Shown here piece after piece: positions 3,719 through 55,413 of a DNA stretch of 64,000 nt. Position 1 is the first letter of the stretch. Each line of letters begins with the position of its first letter. The translations under genes and the position numbers were made by a program. The DNA is from Leuconostoc citreum (GTDB lineage Bacteria; Bacillota; Bacilli; Lactobacillales; Lactobacillaceae). Location: contig NZ_PUFH01000005.1 of NCBI RefSeq assembly GCF_004354555.1, positions 558,001 to 622,000 of the forward strand, written 5' to 3'. The notes below the pieces were generated by a model. That model saw only the letters and a list, made by a program, of their open reading frames with translations, searched no databases and was not told the origin of the DNA.

Positions 3719-3744
3719 CAACGACAAAAATATATCGGTTCACA

Positions 3745-3814
3745 TTTGCGGATAGTCACGACTTTTGGGGCGTGGTAGAAACTGCTGGCCATTCCCCAGC
3801 GATATATCTGCAAA
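3745..3814 (-). promoter_or_regulatory. Guanine riboswitch aptamer upstream of guaB
   Basis: Read on the minus strand, all purine-riboswitch elements are present. P1 pairs TTTGCAGATA with TATCCGCAAA (one A-C mismatch). P2 is GCTGG/CCAGC with loop GGAATGG, J2/3 is GTTTCTACC, the P3 loop CCCCAAAAG can pair with the P2 loop, and J3/1 is GACTAT. The specificity position of J3/1 is C, which in characterised members means guanine rather than adenine. The aptamer lies 27 bases before the terminator that its P1 strand can disrupt, so the predicted logic is transcription OFF with guanine. Confidence 0.95.
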
Positions 3815-3837
3815 CAAAAGATTTAGTTGTTGATATC

Positions 3838-11836: not shown

Positions 11837-12065
11837 GAAAAATCACCCTATATCACACTAAAAAGCATGACATAGGGCGAATTAATCGCGGTACCACCTA
11901 TGTTTACGTATTGCTACGCCTCAAAACGTCTTAACGCGACGATACGTTGAAAGTTACTAAAGTTTCGCTTTCAAGGTGATTTAACCGAGTTCAACATGTT
12001 GTTCGGTAAACTTTCACCACCGCTTACTCTCTAACACACCACGCCATGTCTACTACTGTTAAATA
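11837..12065 (-). promoter_or_regulatory. T-box leader of leuS (leucine)
   Basis: The minus strand contains the T-box GGTGGTACCGCG (about 11888-11899), which pairs with uncharged tRNA acceptor ends. It is followed by a strong terminator stem (TCGCCCTATGTCA... paired with ...TGATATAGGGTGA, then TTTTT) at 11837-11880. On the 3' side of stem I the segment GAACTCGG offers CTC, a leucine codon, as specifier; this assignment is from position only. Uncharged tRNA-Leu should cause readthrough into leuS. Confidence 0.93.
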
Positions 12066-12075
12066 TAATGCTCTA

Positions 12076-27322: not shown

Positions 27323-27562
27323 AAAACAAAAACGTCCCCTTGAGTCATGCGACTCAAAGGGACGTTTCACCGTGGTACCACCCAAGTTTAGCACATAAAG
27401 TGCGACTTAAATGACAGCTAACGGTGTCACCCGAATGGTTTTCAAAACTTACTTACCACTACTCAAAGGTAGTCTTTTCCGTGCAAATTACCCATTTTCA
27501 CCAAACATGGATTCTCTTAAAAATTGCAAACAGTCCAGTTGTCCTTATCAACGTTATTGTGA
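27323..27562 (-). promoter_or_regulatory. T-box leader of thrS
   Basis: The minus strand has GGGTGGTACCACGG (about 27369-27382) followed by a strong terminator whose stem AAACGTCCCTTTGAGTC is closed by GACTCAAGGGGACGTTT and a T-run (27327-27367). The specifier is expected to be a threonine codon; ACT and ACC both occur in the GACTACC segment, and I cannot choose. Confidence 0.93.
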
Positions 27563-45308: not shown

Positions 45309-46451
45309 TTAAATCATTTCCAAATGTAACTGGTTTGGCTTTGCCCAACCCATCTTACGCATCACACGGTAACCGATGAAAGATACAATCACCGGCACGA
45401 CAACCCCAACAATCATGTAAGCAGCAAAAGCAACGGGATTTGATCCTGCCAATGCCAAGGGGACAATGAATGAATTAAAGCCAATACCAGCCATAGCAAA
45501 TGGGGCCGTCACATGAAATGCCATTGTTGCAATGGGCGCCGCAATTGCTGCACCAATCATTGGTGGCACAATCAGTGCTGGGTTCTCTGTTAAATTTGGA
45601 AATTGAATTTTCGGTGTAACAATACCTTGTGCAATTGTGGCACCAATTTTATTTTCATGGAAAGACATGGCTGGAAAACCAACAAACACAGCAGTAGTAC
45701 CGATTAAAATTGCACCGGCAGCTTCTGGCGAGGTTACCCCAGTCGCGCCAATGGCAACTGCCAATGCAGCAGCTGAAGCAGGCGTCATTGTCAAAGCACC
45801 AAAGACCATGGCTACTACAGCCGTACCAATAATTGGGTTGATGGCTACACTCGAAGCAATGAAGTGACCAATAGCTACCAAGGCAGGTGTGGTTACCATT
45901 GCCAAGTAATAACCACTAACTGTACCCACAATTGTTGTTGCCGCTGGGACAATCACCATATCTAATGGCGTCTTACCACTTAACCATTTACCGAACAGAA
46001 CAGCAATAACGGCTGCAATAACGGCAGATATCGGTTGTCCAGTCGTGATAATAGTTGAACCAACAGCTTGTGTACCAGCAAATCCTGTGGCTGTTACACC
46101 TTGAACAGCTGTTTTACTAAAGAATATAGCATTTGCACCAACTGTTGACGCTGCCATCGCACTAAACATGACCATTGTATTAGTTTTCATTTGTGATGCA
46201 ACTGCGGCTCCAAAAGCTGCTGGCAACATCACTTTAGTGATTGCCCCCATTTGTACCATTGGTGCCCAATGAATAAAACCAGCGATTGTTTGTAACAACA
46301 AGCCCATACCCAATGTTACTAAAATGGCGTTTGAAACTGCCGCTGAGGTGTTATAAACCAAATCTCGAACTGATTCCTTTGCTTCACCTACTTTTTCTTG
46401 AATTTTTTCCGTGTCAATTTGACGTTCATTTGCTACCGCGTTTTGTGCCAT
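45309..46451 (-). CDS. PTS_EIIC_2-type membrane protein linked to branched-chain amino-acid uptake
   Basis: A 380-residue polytopic protein with about nine to ten hydrophobic segments, rich in Gly/Ala, of the EIIC_2 type (LVTLGMGLLLQTIAGFIHWAP, TPLDMVIVPAATTIVGTVSGYYLAM-type helices). It lacks EIIA and EIIB domains and phosphorylatable partners nearby. Automatic annotation would call it a sugar PTS subunit. Its position behind a leucine leader-peptide attenuator and directly before livJHMGF argues instead for a role with branched-chain amino acids or their derivatives. That role is inference. Confidence 0.75.
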   Translation of the reverse strand: MAQNAVANERQIDTEKIQEKVGEAKESVRDLVYNTSAAVSNAILVTLGMGLLLQTIAGFIHWAPMVQMGAITKVMLPAAFGAAVASQMKTNTMVMFSAMAASTVGANAIFFSKTAVQGVTATGFAGTQAVGSTIITTGQPISAVIAAVIAVLFGKWLSGKTPLDMVIVPAATTIVGTVSGYYLAMVTTPALVAIGHFIASSVAINPIIGTAVVAMVFGALTMTPASAAALAVAIGATGVTSPEAAGAILIGTTAVFVGFPAMSFHENKIGATIAQGIVTPKIQFPNLTENPALIVPPMIGAAIAAPIATMAFHVTAPFAMAGIGFNSFIVPLALAGSNPVAFAAYMIVGVVVPVIVSFIGYRVMRKMGWAKPNQLHLEMI

Positions 46452-46507
46452 AATGTTTTCTCCCTTTACTTACACTTCAAATGAGCAGTGCAATCATTGG
46501 AGACAAA

Positions 46508-46621
46508 GAAAACGCCCCAACGATTGCTCGTTAGGACGTTTTCACGTATTTTTCCTAACCAGCTACTAACCTTGCGAAAAGTCTAGTAGCTGATCTTGCT
46601 CAAATAACAACCTACTAGACT
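46508..46621 (-). terminator. Leucine attenuator: alternative hairpins and terminator
   Basis: After the leader stop codon the minus RNA offers exclusive pairings. Segment 1 AGTCTAGTAG (46611-46621) pairs with segment 2 CTACTAGACT; segment 2 AGCTACTA pairs with segment 3 TAGTAGCT; GGTTAGG pairs with CCTAACG as antiterminator. The terminator is a 16-bp stem (46508-46543) from GAAAACGTCCTAACGA to TCGTTGGGGCGTTTTC with loop GCAA. The T-run after it is short (TTTTCTTTG). Confidence 0.85.
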
Positions 46622-46683
46622 CAGATGAGAAGGAGGTTGAGGAGAAGTGCGTTATTAACTTGCTTATTGAATGTGTTAGTCAT
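46621..46683 (-). CDS. Leucine-rich leader peptide
   Basis: A 20-codon ORF with GGGAG before its ATG at 46683: MTNTFNKQVNNA then LLLNLLLI and TGA. Six leucine codons, all CTC or CTT, occupy the last eight positions, immediately before the alternative hairpins. The CTC/CTT choice means one isoacceptor (anticodon GAG) would be read repeatedly. This is the layout of a classical transcription-attenuation leader; ribosome stalling under leucine shortage would alter the hairpin choice. Confidence 0.88.
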   Translation of the reverse strand: MTNTFNKQVNNALLLNLLLI

Positions 46684-46732
46684 GTGCTGTCTCCCTTGTT
46701 GAGCAATTACTTGCTGTTTCTTTATGAGTATT

Positions 46733-46761
46733 ACTATACATAGGTTAATTTAAAATGTCAA
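46733..46761 (-). promoter_or_regulatory. Promoter of leucine-attenuated operon
   Basis: TTGACA, 17 bases, TATAGT on the minus strand, about 50 bases before the leader peptide. Confidence 0.88.
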
Positions 46762-47565: not shown

Positions 47566-48930
47566 TTAGTCTCCTTCAATGATTTGATTTTGCCTTTGCG
47601 CGACACGACTAGCGCCGAGTAATACTTCGCCCATCACTGCGCCCAGTAAGGCTGGTACAACCCAACCAAAACCAAGTGATGATAGTGGTACGACTTGATG
47701 ATATGCGCCTATAAGTTGTTGTGCGGTGTGACTCGACATGAAGGGAGAAGCAGCTAAAGCATCTAAAAAAGCTGGCATAGCCACGAAGCCAACAACACTT
47801 CGGTAAACTAGTGGTGACTTATCGAAAAATTTGCCCGTCAAAGACAATAAAATCAATACTAATGCAAAAGGATAAAGAAGCATTAACACTGGTACAGACC
47901 AAGCCACAATGTTAGTTAATCCTGCATTCGCTGTGACAAATGATCCCAAAGCAATAATACGTAAAAACCATAGATAACTCACCTTTGGAAAAGCCAAATG
48001 TAAATCTTGTGCAAAAGACACAAATAATCCCATTGCGGTCGTAAAGACAGCTAGAGTCACAACTACACCTGTTAGTGCTGTGCCAAAATTACCTGCATAA
48101 TGCGCGATAATTTGAGCAAAAGCATCCCCACCATTTGCCGCAACTTTAAATTGGCCCAAACTGGATACGCCCAATAGAACAAGTGCTGTGTATAAGATAG
48201 CTTCTGCAACAATGCTTAACAAGCCTGCTTTTGCTAAAACAGATGATACTTGATGGTCTCGAAAGCCTAATCCTCTGACAGCGTAAACAACAGAAACAGC
48301 CACAGCTAACAAGGCAATGCCATCCATCGTGTTGTATCCGTCTAATAGACCCTGAAAGGTGGCATGACTTTGATAGGCTGAACTAACAGCTTGTGATGTG
48401 TTACCCATTGGCATAAATAGAGCCATTAATAAGACGATGAGCAAAAGTATCATAAACACCGGATTCAAGTACTTGCCAACCCACTTCATCAAGCCTGTTT
48501 CTTTGACAGTTAAAAAATAAGCTAATCCGAAGAATAATGCTGAGAAAATTAACATACCCAAACTTTGATACTTGGGCGCAATAAACGGTGCGATTCCCAT
48601 TGAAAAAGCAGTTGCAGCCGTACGCGGAGTTCCAAAGAATGGCCCAATTGTTAAATGAATAGCTACTAGAAATGCCAGACCAAACCAATGGCCTACGGGC
48701 GTTGCAACATCATAAACACTACGACTACGTGTGACACTCACGGCCAGCATGGCTAAAAATGGGACAACTGTGCCAGTTACTAAAAAGCCAATTGTCGCTA
48801 ATACCCAATGACCACCCGATAGTTGACCAAGTTGTACTGGAAAAATTAAATTACCAGCACCAAAAAACATGCCAAAGATAAGTGAGGCGACTAGCACCAA
48901 TTCACGCCAAGTTAATTTTTTGTCATGCAT
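47566..48930 (-). CDS. brnQ: Branched-chain amino-acid carrier (BrnQ, LIVCS family)
   Basis: Sodium- or proton-coupled uptake of Leu, Ile and Val. The 454 residues show the family entry SLIFGMFFGAGNLIFPVQLGQ in pieces (MFFGAGNLIFP), about 12 transmembrane segments and TPRTAATAFSMG. The ATG is nine bases after GGAGG and overlaps the hydratase-like gene by eight bases. Expressed behind the isoleucine leader peptide. Second branched-chain uptake system in the window, complementing livJHMGF. Confidence 0.94.
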   Translation of the reverse strand: MHDKKLTWRELVLVASLIFGMFFGAGNLIFPVQLGQLSGGHWVLATIGFLVTGTVVPFLAMLAVSVTRSRSVYDVATPVGHWFGLAFLVAIHLTIGPFFGTPRTAATAFSMGIAPFIAPKYQSLGMLIFSALFFGLAYFLTVKETGLMKWVGKYLNPVFMILLLIVLLMALFMPMGNTSQAVSSAYQSHATFQGLLDGYNTMDGIALLAVAVSVVYAVRGLGFRDHQVSSVLAKAGLLSIVAEAILYTALVLLGVSSLGQFKVAANGGDAFAQIIAHYAGNFGTALTGVVVTLAVFTTAMGLFVSFAQDLHLAFPKVSYLWFLRIIALGSFVTANAGLTNIVAWSVPVLMLLYPFALVLILLSLTGKFFDKSPLVYRSVVGFVAMPAFLDALAASPFMSSHTAQQLIGAYHQVVPLSSLGFGWVVPALLGAVMGEVLLGASRVAQRQNQIIEGD

Positions 48931-49726
48931 TAGCGCTCACCTCCGTGACGACATTTAACACAACATCACTAAAGCCGCCGGTAAATGTCGCGCGCCACTC
49001 GCCTATTCTCAGTGTTGGCGGTAGTAAAAATGTACCAGTAGTAGCACGCGTGCCCGCTTTAAATAATTTACCTTGTGATGCCAGTTTTGTAACTAACCAT
49101 TGTAATGATTCTAAAGGGTTCCCTAATACTTCTGAACCGAATCCTGAAGCTACTTTGTCGCCATTATGGTAAAGCGTTGCTTCAACGGTTGCTAAGTCAT
49201 CAACCGTCATTTGTTTCCCATCACGTGGCCTAGCGGAAACAACAGCACCACCGACTGCTGAATCACTTAACACTAAAAATTTGTCTAACTTAGGAAACCA
49301 GTTTTTGAACCGCGCATCTGGTACTTCCAGAGTCGGCGCAACAGTTGTGTTAGCTAAAAGGTCTGTTAATGACATTTCTGGGGTTAAATCAGCTTTAGCT
49401 GTAAATTGTAATTCAACTTCAACCAGTGGTTCATTATATTTTGTTAAATCGAGTGTATAAGGCGAGGTAACGAAACGACTGGCAACCTGTGCGCCATAAA
49501 GTGGCGCATCTGTATGAAACATGGCTTGTGTTTCTGGTGAAGTTAATGATACTTTATATCCTGCCGTGGCTTCGCTTTTTTTTGCCATAACAGCGTCTTG
49601 CACATCATAGGCTGTTTTAAAATCATTCACCACACCGATGTAAGTGTCACGATGCAATGGTTTGTTATGCACCCAGGCCTCGTATAACTTCTGTGCTAGT
49701 TGTTGCTGCTCTAATGATAATCCCAT
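48923..49726 (-). CDS. 2-keto-4-pentenoate hydratase / fumarylacetoacetase-fold protein
   Basis: A 267-residue member of the hydratase/decarboxylase branch of the FAH fold. It shows GYKVSLTSPETQ, EPLVEVELQF (acidic metal ligands) and the C-terminal RATTGTFLLPPTLRIGEWRATFTGG-type segment in the family order. The usual role is hydration or decarboxylation of 2-oxo acids from aromatic breakdown. Here it precedes brnQ behind an isoleucine leader peptide, so a 2-oxo-acid substrate related to branched-chain amino acids is possible but unproven. AAGGAAGAG precedes the ATG. Confidence 0.8.
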   Translation of the reverse strand: MGLSLEQQQLAQKLYEAWVHNKPLHRDTYIGVVNDFKTAYDVQDAVMAKKSEATAGYKVSLTSPETQAMFHTDAPLYGAQVASRFVTSPYTLDLTKYNEPLVEVELQFTAKADLTPEMSLTDLLANTTVAPTLEVPDARFKNWFPKLDKFLVLSDSAVGGAVVSARPRDGKQMTVDDLATVEATLYHNGDKVASGFGSEVLGNPLESLQWLVTKLASQGKLFKAGTRATTGTFLLPPTLRIGEWRATFTGGFSDVVLNVVTEVSANA

Positions 49727-49753
49727 ATTCTCACTCTTCCTTTAGAAAATAAA

Positions 49754-49848
49754 AAAGGCATACTGCTTAAGTTAAGCAGCATGCCTTTTGCATGAAAATC
49801 AGCTGCCTATCATATCTGATAGGCTCAACAAATTGTCAGCACCTATCA
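49754..49848 (-). terminator. Isoleucine attenuator: alternative hairpins and terminator
   Basis: After the leader stop codon: GATAGG (segment 1) can pair with CCTATC (segment 2), or GCCTATC (segment 2) with GATAGGC (segment 3; 49805-49824). A strong terminator follows, stem AAGGCATGCTGCTTAA/TTAAGCAGTATGCCTT with T-run (49751-49789). The order copies that of the leucine attenuator. Confidence 0.85.
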
Positions 49849-49905
49849 CGAAATAATGATAATGCTGATAATAATTTGTACATTTGTCTTAGCTGAATTG
49901 ACCAT
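49846..49905 (-). CDS. Isoleucine-rich leader peptide
   Basis: A 19-codon ORF, ATG at 49905 with AAAGGG upstream: MVNSAKTNVQ then IIISIIIIS and TGA. Seven isoleucine codons (ATT/ATC) in the last nine positions sit just before the alternative hairpins. Predicted to stall ribosomes when charged tRNA-Ile is scarce, allowing transcription of the hydratase-like gene and brnQ. Confidence 0.88.
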   Translation of the reverse strand: MVNSAKTNVQIIISIIIIS

Positions 49906-49935
49906 GTTATTTTCCCTTTTTTATTTGATGTTTTT

Positions 49936-49964
49936 ATTAAAACATAATGAACAAAATGTGTCAA
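49936..49964 (-). promoter_or_regulatory. Promoter of isoleucine-attenuated operon
   Basis: TTGACA, 17 bases, TTTAAT on the minus strand, about 31 bases before the leader peptide. Confidence 0.82.
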
Positions 49965-54499: not shown

Positions 54500-54720
54500 A
54501 AAAGCGTCCCTGTGTCAATCGACACAGGGACGCTTACGCGTGGTACCACCCATACATTCGGCTATACTCATAAAATAACCCTCAAATCAGTTTTAACGAT
54601 CTGCACCGTTTGAACTTACTTAAAATTCAGTTCAACAAACTTGTAACTGATCTGAAAGGCTACAGGGACGATCATCTCTAACCACCATGACTCGCTGCGC
54701 GTATGTACGCCAATCTTGCT
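54500..54720 (-). promoter_or_regulatory. T-box leader of ileS
   Basis: The minus strand has GGGTGGTACCACGCG (about 54537-54551) followed by a terminator with stem AAGCGTCCCTGTGTCGA/TCAATTGA-type loop and GACACAGGGACGCTT, then T-run (54501-54535). The specifier should be an isoleucine codon; ATC occurs in GCAGATCG, but placement in the specifier loop is not certain. No separate promoter is obvious, so readthrough from divIVA may feed it. Confidence 0.9.
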
Positions 54721-54732
54721 GTGTTACGCTTT

Positions 54733-55413
54733 TTATGATTTATTATCTGCTGTGTCTTCCGTCTCTGGAAACACAACTACTGGTCCTTGTTCAACCGTCG
54801 TATCAGACGTTGCTGCGTCGTCAACTATCTCGTCAGCAACATTAGTTGCTGCTTCAGCTGCTGAATTCAAATCAGCTTTTTCAATACGAGCGGCAGTTGC
54901 CTGACCCATTGGCAAACGATGAACTGCCTCGGCTAACTCATCGTTGTCTAATAGTGTACGCTGAACTGTCAATAATTTCAAGAACGAATCTTTAAAACTT
55001 TCAACTTCTTGACGTAATTCGTTTTGCTCGGCAACTAAATCAGCATTTTCTTGTGCCAACTTTGTGGCTTCTGCCTCAGCTTTTGTACGTGCATCACTAA
55101 TAATCTTTGTGGCTGACTCTTGTGCATGCATTAATTGCTTTTTTACTTCTGCATCAGCATCTTTTTTCAAGCGCTCAGCCGCTTCTTGTGCCACAAAGAT
55201 GGACTGGTTAACTTGCTCACGCTTAGCTTCTAGCTCATCAACCTTAACTTGTAACTGTTCCTTTTCATTTGCAAAACGATCACGCTCTGCAATAATTGCT
55301 TCATAATCACCGTTTACTTGGTCTAAAAAGGCGTCAACTTCGGATGCAATATAAGCACGAGAGCCTTTCTTAGTAAAATCATGATTTAATATTTCGTCAG
55401 GTGTTAGTGCCAT
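54733..55413 (-). CDS. divIVA: Cell-division initiation protein DivIVA
   Basis: Coiled-coil protein that binds curved membrane at the poles and septum. The 226 residues start with the membrane-binding domain ALTPDEILNHDFTKKGSRAY, followed by long coiled coils (about 30-150) and an acidic, Ala/Thr/Val-rich C-terminus. Of the two adjacent ATG codons, the second (55413) has the better spacing to GGAG. Confidence 0.93.
   Translation of the reverse strand: MALTPDEILNHDFTKKGSRAYIASEVDAFLDQVNGDYEAIIAERDRFANEKEQLQVKVDELEAKREQVNQSIFVAQEAAERLKKDADAEVKKQLMHAQESATKIISDARTKAEAEATKLAQENADLVAEQNELRQEVESFKDSFLKLLTVQRTLLDNDELAEAVHRLPMGQATAARIEKADLNSAAEAATNVADEIVDDAATSDTTVEQGPVVVFPETEDTADNKS

Follow-up and report, generated by a model that had tools for sequence, protein, structure and literature searches.

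How are a hydratase-like gene and brnQ, the branched-chain amino acid carrier gene behind it, controlled in Leuconostoc citreum? We examined a window of 64,000 nucleotides (the whole stretch analyzed, from contig NZ_PUFH01000005.1), in which a short open reading frame (ORF) ending in a block of isoleucine codons precedes the two genes. A sequence-only reading had taken this region for an isoleucine leader-peptide attenuator. Leader-peptide attenuation is a textbook case from enteric bacteria. To our knowledge few accounts of it exist for lactic acid bacteria, which usually employ T-boxes. We find that conservation, alternative pairings, folding, paralogues with valine codons, and AUC-bearing T-boxes support that reading. 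The leader is very probably an isoleucine-responsive attenuator of transcription that works through the ribosome. From this we infer that the hydratase gene and brnQ would be induced by isoleucine shortage.

The leader and the genes behind it

The leader has every element that had been claimed for it (Table 1). Its consensus promoter is TTGACA-17-TTTAAT, which is missing from our promoter scan of the window because that scan required A as the second base of the -10 box. The ORF runs from an ATG at 49905 to a TGA stop at 49848-49846, behind a modest Shine-Dalgarno sequence (AAGGGAAA). The minus strand confirms the reported ending of its peptide, IIISIIIIS: seven of the nine final codons specify isoleucine, each as ATT or ATC. 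We scanned both strands for short frames, defined by an open length below 40 codons and a start at least nine codons ahead of the stop. This is the sole such frame in the window with at least seven identical residues among the last nine, and 60 simulated windows with the same base-to-base transitions contained none.

Between the leader ORF and the first structural gene lies an intrinsic terminator (49789-49753), a 17-pair hairpin with a T run. The proposed chain of GATAGG/CCTATC pairings is likewise present, as successive GATAGG, CCTATC, and GATAGG segments. Beyond this chain, we find two further pairings, 1:2 inside the isoleucine codons and the antiterminator 4:5 (AGGCAGC with GCTGCTT), in which segment 4 takes up part of segment 5 (49780-49774).

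Table 1. Features of the leader, the genes behind it, and other RNA elements of the window (window coordinates).
Feature	Position	Strand	Basis or remark
Promoter TTGACA-17-TTTAAT, TGT directly 5' of the -10 box	49936..49964	-	sequence
-35 box, TTGACA	49964-49959	-	read from sequence
-10 box, TTTAAT	49941-49936	-	read from sequence
Leader peptide ORF, 19 codons, MVNSAKTNVQIIISIIIIS + stop	49846..49905	-	sequence; frame kept in 18/18
Segment 1, within the Ile codons; partner segment 2	49857..49872	-	A1 columns 7-25
Segment 2, begins at the leader stop codon; partner 1 or 3	49832..49848	-	A1 pairings
Segment 3; partner 2 or 4	49817..49826	-	A1 pairings
Segment 4; partner 3 or 5 (antiterminator)	49802..49812	-	A1; columns 84-115
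Segment 5, terminator 5' arm	49773..49789	-	terminator scan and A1 pairings
Segment 6, terminator 3' arm and T run	49751..49769	-	terminator scan
MhpD/HpaH-like 2-oxo-acid hydratase family gene	48923..49726	-	weak NCBIfam matches; PDB relatives
brnQ, branched-chain amino acid carrier	47566..48930	-	PF05525 and TIGR00796 above cut-off
Leucine leader, MTNTFNKQVNNALLLNLLLI	46500-46761	-	own terminator
PTS_EIIC_2 gene	45309-46451		behind the leucine leader
T-box leader	11870-12069	-	
T-box leader	27355-27560	-	
T-box leader before ileS	54523-54735	-	under gathering score
Purine riboswitch aptamer	3733-3829	-	

The product of the first gene has no Pfam match and matches NCBIfam hydratase and decarboxylase models far below their equivalog cut-offs. 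Its PDB relatives (1sv6, 2eb4, and 5d2i) are hydratases and 4-oxalocrotonate decarboxylases. A scan of named genomes for this hydratase gave four loci, and the protein of Leuconostoc carnosum DSM 5576 (locus L026) is 72% identical to that of the window. The hydratase gene overlaps brnQ by 8 bases. BrnQ is the single match to its family in this genome (G000), and ketol-acid reductoisomerase has no match in it; among 19 Leuconostoc genomes, that enzyme is matched in 5 and has no match in 14. Since the enzyme is not found in this genome, import should matter. These gene contents suggest that the strain may be an isoleucine auxotroph, which would open a branched-chain carrier upon isoleucine shortage.

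The leucine attenuator to which the isoleucine leader had been likened also exists, about 3.2 kb away. Its PTS_EIIC_2 gene is preceded by a leader ending LLLNLLLI in all 11 Leuconostoc loci read. In another genus (locus L127), a homologous PTS_EIIC_2 gene (43% identical) stands behind an Ile/Val leader instead.

Conservation and alternative pairings within Leuconostoc

A pattern search allowing up to three mismatches finds the leader core in 18 of the 19 Leuconostoc genomes, once per genome. All 18 copies keep the TTGACA-17-TTTAAT promoter and the ORF in the same frame. In alignment A1, which comprises these 18 leaders (17 distinct sequences), the only indel within the coding part is one of 3 bases. 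The N-terminal part of the peptide is variable, and the frame and the isoleucine block are conserved.

The genes behind the leader are arranged in two ways. In 12 Leuconostoc genomes the leader stands ahead of the hydratase gene, with brnQ next in 9 of them. There is no brnQ match behind the leader and hydratase gene in G009. In G011 and G018 (loci L036 and L048), the brnQ behind the leader is a remnant of about 45 residues, and the leader and hydratase locus is still there; the hydratase gene of G018 is itself in pieces. In six further genomes, which we take to be the second Leuconostoc clade, the leader stands straight before brnQ, with no hydratase gene between. Their hydratase gene lies elsewhere and has its own leader, of different sequence, with an isoleucine block at its end in all six (e.g., MNKQMNSQVNNIIINAIIII). 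With brnQ lacking the hydratase gene in six genomes, and the hydratase gene lacking an intact brnQ in three, both genes look like targets of the leader. Judging from gene order, an isoleucine leader can apparently stand before either of them.

Five overlapping helices (1:2, 2:3, 3:4, 4:5, and 5:6) can be written for A1. They form a six-segment layout in which hairpins 1:2, 3:4, and 5:6 are opposed by the alternatives 2:3 and 4:5. Standard pairs make up 96.3% of the terminating set (1:2, 3:4, 5:6), in which 7 pairs, all of them within the terminator (11 terminator pairs counted), are changed on both sides. The reading set (2:3, 4:5) has 92.4% standard pairs and one pair changed on both sides, columns 84-115, which is C-G in 10, U-A in 5, and U-G in 2 of the 17 distinct sequences. 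That count of one was attained in 484 of 500 shuffles; the percentage paired was attained in 2 and the covariation score in 1 of the 500. Segments 1 to 4 show so little variation that covariation support for the antiterminator is modest. In the terminator, column 115 partners column 129, again as a standard pair in 17 of 17.

This layout would operate as follows. Transcription would start about 25 bases 5' of the ORF, with a ribosome presumably following the polymerase. When charged tRNA-Ile is ample, the ribosome would proceed to the stop codon, within segment 2, so that 3:4 pairs and segment 5 stays free; the 5:6 terminator would then form and an RNA of about 180 bases would be released. When isoleucine is short, the ribosome would stall at the first isoleucine codons, over segment 1. 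Pairing of 2:3 would then leave segment 4 to pair with segment 5, the terminator would be precluded, and transcription would continue into the hydratase gene and brnQ. Should the ribosome be absent, 1:2 and 3:4 would likewise favor the terminator in most copies.

We modeled this switch by a ribosome walk, an equilibrium calculation with no kinetics, in which the leader is folded up to the terminator loop and the bases covered by the ribosome are omitted (6 genomes, then all 18). Mean 4:5 pairing was 0.80 when one of the first three isoleucine codons occupied the A site, versus 0.10 at the stop codon and 0.14 without a ribosome (n = 18). Footprints of 9 and 13 bases gave stalled means of 0.82 and 0.77, and 0.10 at the stop. 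Stalled pairing exceeded 0.5 in 15 of the 18 copies, and pairing at the stop was below 0.5 in all 18. The stalled value was the higher one in every copy, the difference being practically nil in G014 (0.01 versus 0.00). Switching was weak in G001 and G007 (stalled 4:5 pairing of 0.24 and 0.37), and in G013 and G017 the antiterminator reached 0.49 at the stop and 0.58 to 0.59 without a ribosome. The window sequence has a mutually exclusive terminator and antiterminator, with segment 1 over the control codons, and by folding the switch is weak or absent in 3 of the 18 copies. In the window sequence, stalls at the later isoleucine codons (7 to 9, alignment numbering) yield no antiterminator. The switch falls between codons 6 and 7 (same numbering), so the operon should open only when the ribosome stalls at earlier codons.

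An alignment-free version of the walk showed little or no difference for many leaders; it proved insensitive, and we rely on the pair-specific walks instead. This version scores any pairing of the terminator arm with upstream bases, takes the wrong hairpin for at least one valine leader (L089), and by its own rule finds no terminator in 4 of 10 leucine leaders.

Related leaders, changed codons, and T-boxes in other genera

From A1 we built a covariance model (R1) and ran it, with strict filters and rough E-values, against 397 Lactobacillaceae genomes of 40 genera, drawn evenly from a larger group. It matched 76 places in 60 genomes and 15 genera. Eighteen of these places are the training sequences, and the 58 others were all retrieved. 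By a fixed rule, 40 of the 58 have an Ile-rich peptide, 7 a Val-rich peptide, and 11 neither. All 47 Ile- or Val-rich leaders also have at least five Ile or Val among their last 10 residues; of 2165 positions drawn at random from these loci, 12 had a short ORF with this property.

Genes downstream of the 58 places were named by similarity to single reference proteins, except for ilvD, which is presumed from its N-terminus. They comprise brnQ (27), an MFS symporter (16), a PTS EIIC-like gene (3), ilvD (2), and a glutamate-cysteine-ligase-like gene (2); one place lies at a contig edge and 7 have no reference gene. Behind the Ile- and Val-rich leaders, brnQ is the commonest gene (25 of 47). Two further leaders before brnQ (L092 and L097) have peptides that fall slightly under the Ile/Val rule. 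Seven matches lacking an Ile- or Val-rich peptide (L126, L131, L132 twice, L133, L135, and L136) look false, with none of six reference genes within 1.7 kb. Among them is the second match in G008 (L136), which was not confirmed as the leader of an ilv operon.

Two other groups of matches precede genes of other kinds. The 16 places before an MFS symporter carry Ile leaders (L094, L104, L105, L111-L114, L119-L125, L129, and L130), which suggests that the symporter is an isoleucine-related transporter; the protein at L094 falls slightly short of the TIGR00883 cut-off (metabolite/H+ symporter family). The glutamate-cysteine-ligase-like gene is preceded by a related switch (L086:4847-4979 and L087:4990-5118), whose peptide, MIKSASI(N/K)LTVSVSSVTH, is not Ile-rich.

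The hydratase gene outside Leuconostoc is accompanied by a different RNA. An RNA-family search of six such loci (L027, L028, L029, L045, L046, and L047) found a T-box upstream of the gene at five and none at the Streptococcus locus L028. Specifier columns were placed by hand in the Rfam alignment, following the layout GAA...XXXA of a figure legend (PMC5794164). At L029, L045, L046, and L047 they read AUC, then A or G. The T-box of L027 has UCC in these columns and AUC one base upstream; its specifier is ambiguous, as the T-box before ileS in the window, for which AUC would be expected, shows the same one-base offset in the gapped alignment. With a leader peptide in Leuconostoc and AUC T-boxes elsewhere, two unrelated RNA devices seem, at the level of sequence, to keep isoleucine control of the hydratase gene. 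This exchange points to an isoleucine-related role for the enzyme.

The paralogues of a second genus change the codons of the leader. Tandem brnQ pairs occur in six genomes of one non-Leuconostoc genus (G074, G201, G221, G238, G253, and G268), and the two BrnQ proteins of G074 share 70% identity. One copy has the Ile leader ATT ATT ATC AGC ATT ATT ATT, and the other has a Val leader, commonly GTC GTC GTC AGC GTC GTT ATC; the downstream switch is kept in both. We ran the ribosome walk on 13 leaders of this genus, the 12 tandem leaders and the Ile leader of G282. Stalled 4:5 pairing exceeded that at the stop in 12 of the 13 and was above 0.5 in 6. The Ile leader of G253 had zero 4:5 pairing and nil difference, the Val leader of G238 was reversed, and the Val leader of G253 reached 0.51 at the stop. 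The control codons thus differ as a set over unchanged pairings, as amino-acid sensing predicts, and the paralogues amount to a natural codon-swap experiment on the choice of the sensed amino acid.

This swap bears on the alternative that fares best, in which the attenuator would respond to general translation speed or ribosome availability and the isoleucine codons would be a by-product of pairing by segment 1. Segment 1 is indeed under a pairing constraint, so that some codon conservation is expected even without amino-acid sensing. However, the paralogues retain the switch while Val codons replace Ile as a block, the second Leuconostoc clade has Ile-rich leaders of different sequence before the same hydratase gene in six of six genomes, and four of the five hydratase T-boxes elsewhere read AUC. 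We therefore regard a general translation signal as improbable and continue to favor the sensing of isoleucine.

The three T-boxes of the window itself, and those that other genera have ahead of the hydratase gene, lend some plausibility to an attenuator of the riboswitch or T-box type, binding a metabolite or protein, in which the small ORF would be incidental. Against such an attenuator, none of 4227 Rfam models matched the leader, either at the gathering threshold or at E-values up to 1, and the same search that finds T-boxes (RF00230) elsewhere in the window finds none here. Frame and codon identity are also conserved in the genus and in most outside matches, which makes a ligand-binding device very unlikely. 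That the leader is no more than a common terminator or an RNA end near the promoter, with the hydratase gene and brnQ expressed by constitutive readthrough, accords with the terminator form adopted by most copies in ribosome-free equilibrium folding and with the weak switching of some, but it is scarcely credible given an alternative-pairing chain present in 18 copies with few mismatches, the compensated pair 84-115, and a leader that is retained while the gene behind it changes.

Attenuation keyed to isoleucine also allows a broader interpretation, to which we give about an even chance. A widespread Lactobacillaceae switch outside Rfam may act as a module that is re-keyed by block replacement of its codons (Ile/Val, before tandem brnQ) and re-attached to brnQ, MFS symporter, ilvD, PTS EIIC-like, and glutamate-cysteine-ligase-like genes. 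The hydratase-like enzyme, under two unrelated RNA sensors of isoleucine, may in addition be an unrecognized part of isoleucine metabolism. A leader shared by 15 of the 40 sampled genera would explain how branched-chain amino acid uptake is controlled there.

Comparison with known systems

In the his operon leader of enteric bacteria, six segments form terminating pairings (1:2, 3:4, 5:6) or reading pairings (2:3, 4:5). The window leader resembles this system in its pairings and in a peptide that repeats the amino acid to be sensed. It differs in that it would sense isoleucine, precedes a carrier gene and a hydratase-like gene, and belongs to a Gram-positive host.

Peptides rich in branched-chain amino acids are known from other leaders. 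According to passages of one study (PMC5794164), they regulate biosynthesis in Escherichia coli and Salmonella typhimurium. Others have been predicted for Lactococcus, Corynebacterium, and Streptococcus, and the same study supports a Leu-rich attenuator of the Staphylococcus aureus ilv-leu operon. The S. aureus case, as presented in those passages, shares with ours a Firmicute host and a branched-chain-rich peptide with a terminator and antiterminator before branched-chain genes. It is Leu-rich and concerns biosynthesis (PMC5794164), whereas the window leader has an Ile-rich peptide (a Val-rich one in some relatives) and occurs mainly before transporter genes.

T-box control of LIVCS/BrnQ carriers has been described (PMC2494555, in part). 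There, too, brnQ-type genes are controlled by single branched-chain amino acids, through an RNA that binds tRNA, in contrast to the translated leader predicted here (same portion of PMC2494555). The terms Leuconostoc, hydratase, and leader peptide are absent from a term search of the main text of that paper (PMC2494555). Portions of another report describe His leader peptides that replace T-boxes before hisS paralogues in Bacilli (PMC2965389), and further his leader-peptide cases appear in part of PMC9413887. The hisS case resembles ours in that a leader peptide takes the place of a T-box within Firmicutes; unlike the window leader, it concerns histidine and paralogues of an aminoacyl-tRNA synthetase, and neither "isoleucine" nor "branched" appears in the main text (PMC2965389).

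Among the matches listed in a search of open-licence full text, seen as titles and abstract starts, we recognized no account of a leader before brnQ or the hydratase gene in Leuconostoc or its relatives. With no Rfam match and no description found, we therefore call the leader new within a known type of attenuator. Its probable mechanism is classical ribosome-mediated attenuation with a his-like six-segment layout; what appears new is this isoleucine leader, its unusual breadth, and its natural swap of specificity.
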